A DNA stretch of 64,000 nt, from contig MKVL01000005.1 in NCBI GenBank assembly GCA_001899205.1, positions 121,335 to 185,334 on the forward strand, read 5' to 3'. Below the pieces are notes generated by a model, which saw only the letters and a list, made by a program, of their open reading frames with translations, was not told the DNA's origin and ran no database searches. Source of the DNA: Mesorhizobium sp. 65-26. GTDB lineage: Bacteria; Pseudomonadota; Alphaproteobacteria; Rhizobiales; Rhizobiaceae. Positions 53,412 through 56,547 of this stretch are shown one piece after another. Positions within the stretch are counted from its first letter, which is position 1. The number at the start of each line of letters is the position of its first letter. The translations under genes were made by a program, and so were the position numbers.

Positions 53412-53526
53412 CCCAGTGGTCTAATGCCTGCCGGATATCGGCGGCAAAGGCGCGCTGGCGCTAAGAGCCCGTGCGCCTTTGCCGTTGCCGCCAGACTGAT
53501 GCTCGCATATATAGTCAAGATGGTCA

Positions 53527-53534
53527 GACTAGTC
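53527..53534. promoter_or_regulatory. Palindrome before the antitoxin gene
   Basis: Perfect 8-base GACTAGTC set in TGGTCAGACTAGTCATGAGA, just upstream of the antitoxin start and downstream of a TATATAGT promoter-like word near 53509-53516. Toxin-antitoxin operons are normally autoregulated through such sites. Confidence 0.4.
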
Positions 53535-53545
53535 ATGAGATTGAA

Positions 53546-53812
53546 ATGCGGCCCGAGCCCAAAGACGACAAGAACTGGACAGTGGCCGGAGCAAAAGCCC
53601 GGCTGTCGGAAGTGATCGAGCGCGCGCAGTCTTCGCCGCAGACGATCACCAGGAACGGCAAACCAAGCGTGGTTGTCGTCTCTGCCGAGGAATGGCAGCG
53701 CAAGACAGCACGCAAAGGCACGCTTGCGGAGTTCCTGCTGGACTCGCCACTGCGCGGCGCGGATCTCGATCTGGAACGCAAGCAAGATGAACCGCGCGAT
53801 CTCCCGCTGTGA
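53546..53812 (+). CDS. Phd/YefM-type antitoxin
   Basis: 88 residues with the Phd/YefM core NWTVAGAKARLSEVIERAQ, ITRNGKPSVVVVSAEEWQ and a C-terminal toxin-binding tail (LAEFLLDSPLRGADLDLERK). It would repress its own promoter and neutralise the PIN toxin encoded next; the GTG start of the toxin overlaps its stop codon. A GACTAGTC palindrome (53527-53534) 11 bases before the start could be the operator. Confidence 0.9.
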   Translation: MRPEPKDDKNWTVAGAKARLSEVIERAQSSPQTITRNGKPSVVVVSAEEWQRKTARKGTLAEFLLDSPLRGADLDLERKQDEPRDLPL

Positions 53813-54231
53813 GGCTCTTGCTCGATACCAATGTCCTGTCCGAGGTGACCAGGCCAGCGCCGGATGCCCGGGTTATGGAGTGGCTGGATGGGCTGGATGA
53901 GGATCGCTCGTTCATCAGCGTCGTGTCGATTGCCGAAATTCGGCGCGGCGTCGCCCTGATGGATGAGGGCCGCAAACGCGAAGCGCTGGCCGAGTGGCTC
54001 ACTCGGGATCTGCCGCAGCGCTTCGAACAGCGGGTTTTACCGGTGGACGAACCGGTCGCCCTGGCCTGGGGCGACCTGATGGGCCTTGCCAAGCGCCGTG
54101 GTCGCGGTCTGTCGTCGATGGACGGACTGATCGCGGCCACCGCGGTTGCGCGACAGCTCACTTTGGCAACGCGCAATACGAAGGATTTCGAAGGCTTTGG
54201 GGTTGAACTCTTCGATCCCTGGACCGGATGA
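53809..54231 (+). CDS. vapC: VapC-type PIN-domain toxin
   Basis: 140-residue PIN-domain ribonuclease. Acidic residues are seen at the expected places: LLLDTNVLSE (first Asp), SVVSIAEIRRGV (Glu), SMDGLIAATA (Asp) and ATRNTKDFEGFGVELFDPW at the end. The start is GTG 53809, overlapping the antitoxin stop (GTGA). Partner of the Phd-type antitoxin. The pair marks the accessory stretch between the two inositol regions. Confidence 0.92.
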   Translation: MRLLLDTNVLSEVTRPAPDARVMEWLDGLDEDRSFISVVSIAEIRRGVALMDEGRKREALAEWLTRDLPQRFEQRVLPVDEPVALAWGDLMGLAKRRGRGLSSMDGLIAATAVARQLTLATRNTKDFEGFGVELFDPWTG

Positions 54232-54285
54232 GCCACTGGATGTCGGTCGCTAACACTACTCGCAGATCCCCTCACAAAGAGAAGC

Positions 54286-54528
54286 ATGGTGCACCCATAC
54301 TGGATCACGATAAGTGGTCATCTTGGCGTCGGCGTAACCGCACAATCGGAACCCGATGCGCTGCTGATCTTCGCGATTGCCTTCCCGTCCAAGGAGATCA
54401 TCGGCATAGAGATCATCAAGGACATGAACGATCTCGACCAGAATCATGTCGTGCCTAATTTGGGCGGCGCCAATTGGCTCAAGCGTGGCATCTGGTTTCC
54501 CCAAGGCTACGAGCACATCGCGGACTGA
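54286..54528 (+). CDS. Small hypothetical protein (80 aa)
   Basis: 80-residue soluble protein starting MVHPYWITISGHLGVGVTA and ending LKRGIWFPQGYEHIAD. AAGAGAAG stands just before the ATG, which supports expression. The central part (IEIIKDMNDLDQNHVVPN) is acidic. I do not recognise the family. It lies between vapC and the aromatic leader of the DAHP synthase gene. Confidence 0.55.
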   Translation: MVHPYWITISGHLGVGVTAQSEPDALLIFAIAFPSKEIIGIEIIKDMNDLDQNHVVPNLGGANWLKRGIWFPQGYEHIAD

Positions 54529-54553
54529 GAGAATGCATGGCGTCATGAGACAC

Positions 54554-54582
54554 GTGACAAACCCCTCGGCATCGACTATATG
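54554..54582 (+). promoter_or_regulatory. Probable promoter of the DAHP synthase leader
   Basis: GTGACA (54554-54559) and TATATG (54577-54582) are separated by 17 bases, a good -35/-10 pair. The expected start of transcription is about 54589, exactly the ATG of the leader peptide, so the message would be leaderless. Confidence 0.55.
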
Positions 54583-54588
54583 AGCCGC

Positions 54589-54666
54589 ATGATCCACCTG
54601 ACCGCCTCGTTTTGGTACTTTAGCTACTTTAGCTCGCTGGCGGCGGGAGGATTGCGCTCGATCTGA
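54589..54666 (+). CDS. Aromatic leader peptide of the DAHP synthase gene
   Basis: A 25-codon ORF from ATG 54589 to TGA 54664-54666 (an in-frame ATG at 54580 would give 28 codons). It contains SFWYFSYFSS: codons TTT TGG TAC TTT AGC TAC TTT at 54610-54630, six aromatic residues in seven. This covers all three end products of the shikimate pathway. It is followed by a terminator stem and by the DAHP synthase gene. This is the layout of a classical attenuation leader, in which ribosomes stall when aromatic aminoacyl-tRNAs are short. Confidence 0.72.
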   Translation: MIHLTASFWYFSYFSSLAAGGLRSI

Positions 54667-54719
54667 AAACTCCAGATCAAAATCCGACAAGCCGCCAGAC
54701 CTGGCGGCTTTTTTGTTTT
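54637..54719 (+). promoter_or_regulatory. Transcription attenuator with alternative stems
   Basis: CTGGCGGC occurs twice, at 54637-54644 inside the leader ORF and at 54701-54708. Between them GCCGCCAG (54691-54698) can pair with either. Pairing with the first gives an antiterminator of 8 bp; pairing with the second gives the terminator. A ribosome stalled on the aromatic codons (to 54630) leaves the first copy free. One reaching the stop codon (54664-54666) covers it and lets the terminator form. Confidence 0.72.
54689..54719 (+). terminator. Terminator stem of the DAHP synthase attenuator
   Basis: Stem AAGCCGCCA / TGGCGGCTT with a 4-base loop, followed by TTTTGTTTT, 37 bases before the DAHP synthase start codon. 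Its place upstream of the gene on the same strand indicates regulation, not the end of an operon. Confidence 0.85.
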
Positions 54720-54755
54720 CAGCCGGCAGGTCTCCTAACCAAGGAGCAGAAAGCC

Positions 54756-55847
54756 GTGTTGACCACCACAGATGACCTTCGGGTCCGTGAACTCAGGGAA
54801 TTGAGCACGCCCGACGAGGTGATGCGCGAGATACCGCGCACACTGACGGCGACGCGCACCGTTGCCGCGTCGCGCAACGCCATCCATGCCATCCTGACGG
54901 GGGCCGACGATCGACTTGTTGTCATCGTCGGCCCTTGTTCCATCCACGATCCGGTCGCCGCCGTGGACTACGCCAGCCGTCTGGCGGCGCTGCGCGAGAC
55001 CCTGTCGGACCGGCTCGAGATCGTCATGCGCGTCTATTTCGAAAAGCCGCGCACAACGGTCGGCTGGAAAGGTCTCATCAACGATCCCGATCTCGACGGC
55101 AGCTTCAACATCGACAAGGGTTTGCGCATGGCGCGCAACGTGCTGTCGGCCGTCAACAATCTCGGCCTGCCGGCGGCCACCGAATTCCTCGACATGACGA
55201 CGCCGCAATACATCGCCGACCTCGTCGCCTGGGGCGCGATCGGCGCGCGCACGACCGAAAGCCAGATCCATCGCGAACTGGCCTCGGGCCTGTCATGCCC
55301 GGTCGGCTTCAAGAACGGCACCGACGGCAATCTGCGGATCGCCGGCGAAGCGGTGAAGTCGGCCGCGCAACCGCACCATTTCCTGGCGGTGACCAAGGGC
55401 GGGCGCAGCGCGATCGCGGCAACTTCCGGCAACGAGGACTGCCACGTCATCCTGCGTGGCGGCGTCGCCCCCAACTATGACGCGGCGAGCGTCGAGGCGG
55501 CGGCGGCGGAGCTCGGCCGCATCGGCGTCGCGCCGCGGCTGATGATCGACGTCAGCCACGCCAACTCGGCCAAGAAGCCGGAGAACCAGCCCAAGGTCGC
55601 GGCCGACGTGGCCGGCCAGGTGGCGGCAGGCGACGAGCGCATCATCGGCGTGATGATCGAGAGCAACATCGTTGCCGGCCGCCAGGATGTCGTGCCCGGC
55701 AAGCCGCTGGTCTACGGCCAGAGCATCACCGATGGCTGCGTCGACTGGGCAACCACCGAAACGATGCTGCATGGCCTGGCCGGCGCCGTCGAATGGCGCC
55801 GCTCGGCACGGCGCGCCATGGTCGAAAGCCGCCAGGGCGCCGCCTGA
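54756..55847 (+). CDS. aroG: 3-deoxy-7-phosphoheptulonate (DAHP) synthase, class I
   Basis: Condenses PEP and erythrose 4-phosphate, the first step to Phe, Tyr and Trp. 363 residues of the AroF/G/H type I-alpha class. Blocks are VIVGPCSIHDP, VYFEKPRTTVGWKGLINDP, GARTTESQIHRELASGLSCP (substrate site), GFKNGTDGNL and MIDVSHANS (metal His). The start is GTG 54756 behind AAGGAG at 9 bases. The gene follows an aromatic leader peptide and attenuator. The likely allosteric amino acid cannot be told from sequence here. Confidence 0.94.
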   Translation: MLTTTDDLRVRELRELSTPDEVMREIPRTLTATRTVAASRNAIHAILTGADDRLVVIVGPCSIHDPVAAVDYASRLAALRETLSDRLEIVMRVYFEKPRTTVGWKGLINDPDLDGSFNIDKGLRMARNVLSAVNNLGLPAATEFLDMTTPQYIADLVAWGAIGARTTESQIHRELASGLSCPVGFKNGTDGNLRIAGEAVKSAAQPHHFLAVTKGGRSAIAATSGNEDCHVILRGGVAPNYDAASVEAAAAELGRIGVAPRLMIDVSHANSAKKPENQPKVAADVAGQVAAGDERIIGVMIESNIVAGRQDVVPGKPLVYGQSITDGCVDWATTETMLHGLAGAVEWRRSARRAMVESRQGAA

Positions 55848-55914: not shown

Positions 55915-56547
55915 CTACGCCGCCCTCAATCCTTCCCAGGCGGTGAACAGCGAGACAGCGAACAGCAGCAGCCCGGCCGCGCGGCCGGCAAGAACGGTGG
56001 CGCGCGGATTGTCGACCAGCAGCGTCCGGCTGCGGCCGGCCGATATTGCGAGCCCGCCGTAGATGACGGCCTGCGTGGCGACCGTCAGCAATCCCATGAC
56101 GGTTGCCTGCATCCAGATCGGCCCGTAGTTCGGCTTCAGGAACTGCGGATAGACGGCAAGGATGAAGAGATAAGCTTTCGGATTGATCAGGCAGGTGACC
56201 AGCCCCTGGCGAAAGGCCTTCCAGGCGGAGCTGCCGGCCGGTCCGCCATCGCCGACGACGATAGAGCTGCGCATCAGCGCAATGCCGATATAGGCCATGT
56301 AGGCGGCGCCGGCGACCAGCAGCGGCGTGAACAGGACCGGCACGAAATGCATGAGCAGGCCGACGCCGACCGCGCCGTTCAGCGTGTGCACCGCGCCGCC
56401 CAGCATGATGCCGGCGGTGGCGGCCAGGCCCCGGTTGATGCCGCCCGTCAGCGCATTGGCCAGCACGAACAGCATGTCCAGACCCGGAACGGCGATGATG
56501 CCGAACAGCAGGATGAAGAACAGCCAGAGATTTTCCGCGTAGCCCAT
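55915..56547 (-). CDS. LysE/RhtB family amino-acid exporter
   Basis: 210 residues with about six membrane segments. Family features are GIIAVPGLDMLFVLANALTG near the N-terminus (G-P-x-x-x-x family turn) and FRQGLVTCLINPKAYLFILA in the centre. Exports amino acids such as homoserine, threonine or lysine; the substrate is not predictable. It is divergent from the broken WYL-type regulator, 128 bases away, which may once have controlled it. Confidence 0.88.
   Translation of the reverse strand: MGYAENLWLFFILLFGIIAVPGLDMLFVLANALTGGINRGLAATAGIMLGGAVHTLNGAVGVGLLMHFVPVLFTPLLVAGAAYMAYIGIALMRSSIVVGDGGPAGSSAWKAFRQGLVTCLINPKAYLFILAVYPQFLKPNYGPIWMQATVMGLLTVATQAVIYGGLAISAGRSRTLLVDNPRATVLAGRAAGLLLFAVSLFTAWEGLRAA

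Follow-up and report, generated by a model that had tools for sequence, protein, structure and literature searches.

A conserved aromatic-codon leader, probably a transcription attenuator, ahead of aroG in Mesorhizobium and other proteobacteria

On computational evidence, the leader of the type I DAHP synthase gene aroG in Mesorhizobium sp. 65-26 is very probably a ribosome-mediated transcription attenuator responding to the charging state of the aromatic tRNAs, most likely of all three. A sequence-only reading of the window, by which we mean the whole 64-kb stretch of DNA analysed here, had pointed to a 25-codon open reading frame (ORF) with six aromatic codons in seven at 54610–54630, and we recovered it base for base: it extends from the ATG at 54589 to the TGA at 54664–54666, encodes the peptide MIHLTASFWYFSYFSSLAAGGLRSI and carries the codons TTT TGG TAC TTT AGC TAC TTT in its aromatic stretch. 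The other elements of that reading, a repeated CTGGCGGC (54637 and 54701) around a single GCCGCCAG (54691), a T-tailed terminator (T run at 54709–54714) and then a DAHP synthase gene, all lie where it had placed them. The trp-type attenuation geometry that it proposed also stands, as a conserved ORF, competing helices that covary and a conserved spacing between the aromatic codons and region 2 (Table 1).

Table 1. Elements of the aroG leader region (window coordinates)
Feature	Coordinates	Strand	Evidence
Probable promoter: CGTGAC 54553–54558, 17-base spacer, CTATAT 54576–54581; expected start ~54589	54553..54581	+	consensus match and conserved distance
Leader peptide ORF, MIHLTASFWYFSYFSSLAAGGLRSI, probably leaderless	54589..54666	+	sequence and relatives
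Region 1, predicted to pair with 54639–54653 in the absence of a stalled ribosome	54591..54606	+	fold; shuffle control (support weaker than for 2:3 and 3:4)
Aromatic codon run F W Y F S Y F; FWYF part (54610–54621) is the predicted sensor	54610..54630	+	
Region 2, antiterminator 5' half: CTGGCGGC 54637–54644 and inner GGATT 54649–54653	54637..54653	+	folds, covariation, peptide-independent location (54638–54644)
Small hairpin carrying the stop codon, inside the antiterminator	54660..54678	+	fold
Region 3: AATCC 54681–54685 and GCCGCCAG 54691–54698; GCCGCCAG common to antiterminator and terminator	54681..54698	+	folds, covariation
Intrinsic terminator (3:4) with T run	54689..54714	+	terminator scan, fold, covariation
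Region 5, able to pair with region 4 (54702–54709) in the readthrough RNA	54721..54728	+	folds against shuffles
aroG, type I DAHP synthase, GTG start, AGGAG 54742–54746	54756..55847	+	

The leader ORF, its promoter and neighbouring genes

The stretch with six F, W or Y in seven codons is the only one of its kind in the six frames of the window, and when the 400 upstream bases were dinucleotide-shuffled 5000 times, no shuffle gave a short ORF with six aromatics (one with five in 6 shuffles, one with four in 99). Thus, the aromatic run is not due to chance. The ORF listing opens the leader at another in-frame ATG further upstream (54580, giving 28 codons); we consider 54589 the better start because the ATG at 54580 overlaps the putative −10 box.

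Alphaproteobacterial promoters have the consensus CTTGAC-N16-18-CTATAT. With 11 of 12 matches to this consensus, the leader promoter is one of 2 such sites on both strands of the 64-kb window. Among the 115 distinct leaders of the genus set (which include three named Mesorhizobium records and one locus, L083, from a neighbouring genus, three of the leaders having the core one register off), GTGACA occupies −35 to −30 and TATATG −12 to −7 relative to the ATG, with each base present in 77–94% of the leaders. A strict TTGACA/TATAAT scan for E. coli-type sigma-70 sites returned no promoter at the leader, and in the beta/gamma set no promoter of this kind stands out at a fixed distance from it. The promoter spacing puts the expected transcription start on the ATG itself, so that the leader ORF is probably leaderless; in this respect the picture drawn by the sequence-only reading is to be amended.

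The 363-residue product of aroG scores 521.9 bits against TIGR00034 (cut-off 173.2) and matches PF00793. The same genome (L086, contig C42) also encodes a type II DAHP synthase (PF01474). We looked for a similar leader before that gene and rejected it, the best upstream short ORF having 2 aromatics in 7 codons; with this type II enzyme lacking a leader in the genome, aroG is therefore not the sole first enzyme of the pathway. Close upstream of the leader, at 53471–54231 (+), a Phd/YefM-type antitoxin and a PIN-domain protein are encoded that look like a type II toxin–antitoxin pair, and on the other side a gene for a LysE-family exporter (55915–56547, −) is convergent with aroG.

Distribution of the leader and comparison with known systems

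Genes for aroG with E of 1e-80 or better were found in 136 of the 146 genus genomes, in 5 of the 151 sampled family genomes and in 14 of the 385 sampled class genomes, an uneven presence from which it follows that aroG is scattered in the group. Leaders were called when at least 4 of 7 codons were F, W or Y, which fixes part of their aromatic content by construction. By this rule, an aromatic leader precedes type I aroG in all 113 genus genomes whose upstream region was read (out of 136; in three of the other 23, aroG is truncated at the start). Elsewhere in the alphaproteobacteria, 36 of 39 loci have such a leader, as do 53 of 74 beta-, gamma- and other loci. These counts were made after removal of four repeated loci (L211–L214), with L038, L088 and L093 taken as misses and L028 added as a miss (hence 36/39 and not 36/38). 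The nearest named aroG genes, in three Mesorhizobium records, encode proteins with 93–94% identity; named holders among the alpha-, beta- and gammaproteobacteria include Bradyrhizobium, Devosia, Methylosinus, Burkholderia, Caballeronia, Massilia, Janthinobacterium, Xanthomonas, Dyella and Rhodanobacter. No leader was called within 400 bases of the gene in the Enterovibrio, Photobacterium, Methylotenera, Thauera and Chitinimonas loci. In exactly this form, the run FWYFSYF is uncommon: of 120 genus-set loci, 1 has it. The sequence-only reading had stated that it would be refuted if the short ORF or the two alternative stems were not conserved in related genomes; both proved to be conserved. In 'Candidatus Burkholderia humilis' (L038), the ~200 bases ahead of aroG carry an aromatic leader with a broken frame along with a retained terminator half.

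The leader label is strongly clustered in a quickly built tree of 106 AroG proteins (LG+G4, SH-aLRT support only), with 7 changes vs 18.6 when shuffled and none of 500 shuffles as low; four rows that the script had not called carry this label by hand, namely L028 (3 aromatics in 7 codons), L038 (the frame-broken locus just mentioned), and L088 (157 bases upstream only) and L093, in which the terminator half alone is seen. A supported branch (95) holds 47 rows, all labelled 'leader' (L028, L088 and L093 by hand), and brings together every alphaproteobacterial row with Xanthomonas, Stenotrophomonas, Dyella, Rhodanobacter and one Bordetella. The simplest reading of these sequences would be that aroG moved between the classes together with its attenuator.

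We considered whether the leader is a known Rfam element and rejected this: none of the 12 matches obtained for 54000–55200 of the window at an E of up to 10 reached the gathering score of its family, nor did any family in 19 related loci. The best match by score was Phe_leader (RF01859, the E. coli pheL type), with 25.1 bits and an E of 0.13, far below the gathering score of 55; it lies over the terminator half, beginning at 54660, and the aromatic codons fall outside it. A low-scoring match to BjrC1505 (RF02356) runs across the leader, at 18.4 bits vs a gathering score of 50, and was dropped; this family gave no match in three Bradyrhizobium loci (L005, L006, L009).

Attenuators of this kind are already known; what appears to be particular to the present one is its pan-aromatic codons, its wide distribution and its probable leaderless start. 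Going by gene naming, we take aroAI-alpha to be the gene for type I DAHP synthase. Attenuators from Merino's database have been predicted before the aroAI-alpha > tyrA operons of Vibrio (Song et al., 2005; PMC1173090, Table 7), which resemble the present case in being proteobacterial operons that open with a type I DAHP synthase gene behind a predicted attenuator; the description given there includes no leader peptide, and three Vibrionaceae aroG-like loci of our own set (L071, L077, L078) had no leader call. In C. glutamicum, the aroR-aroF system is described as a Phe-Tyr-Phe leader peptide before a DAHP synthase gene, with control by ribosome stalling (PMC11802643; PMC4046766). It is thus also an aromatic-codon leader peptide ahead of a DAHP synthase gene; unlike the window leader, it is actinobacterial and is described with F-Y-F only, no Trp being mentioned. 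The uORFC-13-1 motif of Acholeplasma aroF likewise places a proposed uORF, in which one or more Phe codons are present, and a terminator ahead of the DAHP synthase gene, and differs in its reported range of 24 representatives from Acholeplasma and environmental sequences (PMC8632094). The same source refers to a hypothesis of attenuation at E. coli aroF (Camakaris, 1980), the 5' region of which differs from the uORFC-13-1 motif (PMC8632094). The trpL attenuator of S. meliloti and other rhizobia is ribosome-dependent, and in S. meliloti its leader ORF is leaderless and begins with its own AUG (PMC10117765); as described, it differs from the aroG leader in having Trp codons only and in being located before trpE (PMC7298713; PMC10117765). 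We found no description of a leader-peptide attenuator before aroG in these lineages in the open literature, several likely sources and Merino's database lying outside this search.

Competing helices and the proposed course of attenuation

The region 54554–54755 folds at 2.77 sd below its shuffles, of which 1 in 200 was equally stable, and its terminator was also recovered by a terminator scan of the window. In relatives, the terminator has a dG of −8 or lower in 200 of 200 distinct leaders, which had been chosen for having a T run. The RNA folding and covariation check that the earlier reading had called for came out in its favour, as both alternative stems covary. In an alignment of 66 representatives, 95.3% of the cells of the 3:4 helix are paired, with a covariation of 0.170 vs 0.090 (sd 0.008) in shuffles, and 85.9% of those of the 2:3 helix, with 0.086 vs 0.060 (sd 0.007); for either helix, none of 500 shuffles was as high, and both pairing and covariation are above those of every version slid by 1–3 columns. 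The number of further pair types in 2:3, which is 9, is ordinary (96 of 500 shuffles were as high, and two slid versions gave 10 and 11), and the end pairs of this helix are often open, the outer pair 47–128 in 18 of 64 cells and the pair 54–121 in 32 of 65.

When the RNA ahead of a stalled ribosome was folded, region 3 paired with the leader ORF in 23 of 25 other-alpha representatives, vs a mean of 13.95 (max 18) in 100 shuffled-tail controls, and in 32 of 36 beta/gamma representatives, vs 10.24 (max 19). The genus set, with its five representatives, has no power here and is uninformative (5/5 vs 3.61 shuffled). Both the model of the window RNA and the folds of its relatives have the antiterminator (2:3) and the terminator (3:4) as mutually exclusive. 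A 1:2 helix forms in the window leader and, among relatives, in 4 of 5 genus representatives (shuffle mean 2.1, max 4), 15 of 25 other-alpha (6.93, max 12) and 13 of 34 beta/gamma representatives (5.24, max 11); it is thus commoner than in the shuffles on average, but it is not a general feature of the leaders and is weaker than 2:3 and 3:4.

From the ORF and its conservation, the two competing and covarying helices and the codon spacing described below, we infer the start of transcription, the stalling and the readthrough as follows. Transcription would start at or near the leader ATG, and the ribosome would start directly on this ATG. With Phe-, Tyr- or Trp-tRNA in short supply, the ribosome would stall in the FWYF codons and mask region 1; region 2, freed by the stall, would pair with region 3, no terminator would form and aroG would be transcribed. 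With all three tRNAs plentiful, the ribosome would proceed to the stop codon and cover the inner part of 2:3, the 3:4 terminator would form and transcription would stop near 54714. In a leader that is not translated, 1:2 and 3:4 would form and transcription would also stop.

A hairpin of region 4 with region 5 was found in 25 of 25 other-alpha representatives vs 19.7 (max 24) in shuffles, with a mean energy of −12.6 vs −8.5 kcal/mol and the best shuffle at −9.8; in the genus set it was present in 5/5 vs 3.9 (−9.46 vs −9.32 for the best shuffle), and in the beta/gamma set in 24 of 36 vs 27.0 by count, with a mean energy (−7.87) just below that of the best shuffle (−7.5). By pairing with the 3' arm of the terminator, region 5 could lock the readthrough RNA.

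Codon position and the signal sensed

For an analysis of codon position, region 2 was placed by its complementarity to the terminator arm alone, with the whole ORF searched and the peptide disregarded. In all 66 distinct leaders, the codon five before region 2 is aromatic. Further upstream, aromatic codons are present in 63 (six codons before), 59 (seven) and 52 (eight) of the 66; nearer to region 2, there are 28 (four), 38 (three), 12 (two), 2 (one) and 0 (zero codons before). If a stalled ribosome covers 12 bases beyond the A site, as we assumed throughout, five codons before region 2 is where it would start to mask region 2. As a control, region 2 lies 18–48 bases past the core start in 66 of 66 leaders, vs a mean of 24.1 (max 33) when the letters were shuffled, and 9.6% of the shuffled ORFs gave a helix as strong as that of the observed region 2. 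An earlier profile of 64 representatives, in which a stall would favour antitermination at 348 of 407 aromatic codons vs 288 of 1083 other codons, is partly circular, since region 2 was located there by folds starting 18 bases into the core; we rely on the 66/66 version. Given this conserved spacing, the mechanism is directly testable by moving the codons.

The sequence-only reading had stalling at the aromatic codons free the antiterminator half. In the masking model of the finished window RNA, which covered the aromatic codons from W54613 onwards and the stop codon, this is so for W54613 and Y54616, with either of which in the A site the antiterminator is favoured. At F54619 the outcome is borderline: ahead of the polymerase, the antiterminator would still form and be stable (−30.8 kcal/mol up to the terminator loop) until that loop is complete, but the finished RNA slightly prefers the terminator. 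It does not extend to Y54625 and F54628, where no more than a shortened antiterminator forms (−22.8 and −16.1) and the terminator wins in the finished RNA; as this shortened antiterminator would be transient, the boundary of sensing is therefore soft. The model thus makes FWYF the likely sensor, F54610 being included by extension of the predicted run, and the distal Y and F probably no part of it. Among the 115 distinct leaders of the genus set, the distal Y position holds Y in 55, while 58 have no aromatic or one other residue there (57 AGC, 1 TCC), and the position after it holds F in only 5. That reaching the stop codon blocks the antiterminator, as had also been proposed, agrees with the model insofar as the finished RNA then favours the terminator; the ribosome would cover the inner helices at 54647–54678 and leave CTGGCGGC itself uncovered, and in principle region 3 might still reach CTGGCGGC with a ribosome on the stop codon.

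At each sensing position F, Y and W interchange, and their order and number vary from leader to leader, as in the runs FWYF, YWYF, FYWYF, YSYWYF, FYFYFFWY and FFTGYFYF. This interchange fits a sensor of pooled tRNA charging. It is unlikely, in our estimate, that the leader is a single-amino-acid attenuator with Phe as the true signal and the Tyr and Trp codons incidental. F is indeed the commonest residue at the place five codons ahead of region 2, in 46 of the 66 representatives, and induction under Phe limitation is reported for C. glutamicum aroR in a review (PMC11802643); yet Y (17) or W (3) holds this key position in the remaining 20, and F, W and Y are all present within the nine-codon core in 112 of 113 genus leaders. 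In 21 of 53 beta/gamma and other leaders the core has F and Y and no W, which can be counted for a Phe signal, and sensing of Trp is therefore not general.

As an aromatic attenuator, the leader is a candidate site for controlling the flow into the shikimate pathway in relatives of Mesorhizobium, Bradyrhizobium, Burkholderia and Xanthomonas, and a leader that senses all three end products would match the shared first step more closely than one that senses a single amino acid. A fuller version can be offered tentatively, as a possible but somewhat doubtful whole: it would combine an OR gate, in which a shortage of any one of Phe, Tyr and Trp, read about five to nine codons before region 2, turns on the common first enzyme, with a fifth element that locks region 4 in the alphaproteobacteria and with movement of the attenuator between classes along with aroG.

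Ribosomes can also be arrested by their own nascent peptide, as in the case of TnaC. That a nascent peptide of the FWYF type should stall the ribosome on a free aromatic compound, and not on uncharged tRNA, would agree with the strong local nucleotide conservation in the leader alignment and with the recurrence of aromatics in every called leader, the latter being a product of the calling rule. It appears very improbable to us, because an arrest peptide should keep particular residues, and the F/Y/W interchange described above, with its varying order and number, speaks against one. Very improbable, too, is a constitutive upstream terminator that yields a small RNA, with the peptide and the antiterminator as by-products and the RNA or peptide acting elsewhere in the manner of rnTrpL and peTrpL: the predicted terminated RNA of ~126 bases, probably leaderless, is like rnTrpL as described (PMC10117765), but a plain small RNA would need neither the spacing of aromatic codons to region 2 nor the covariation of 2:3.

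The attenuator reading leaves room for a trans role, which the leader could have in addition to attenuation. The peTrpL peptide of Sinorhizobium is described as acting in trans (PMC7298713), and the terminated RNA and the leader peptide of aroG are candidates for such action, as with rnTrpL and peTrpL.
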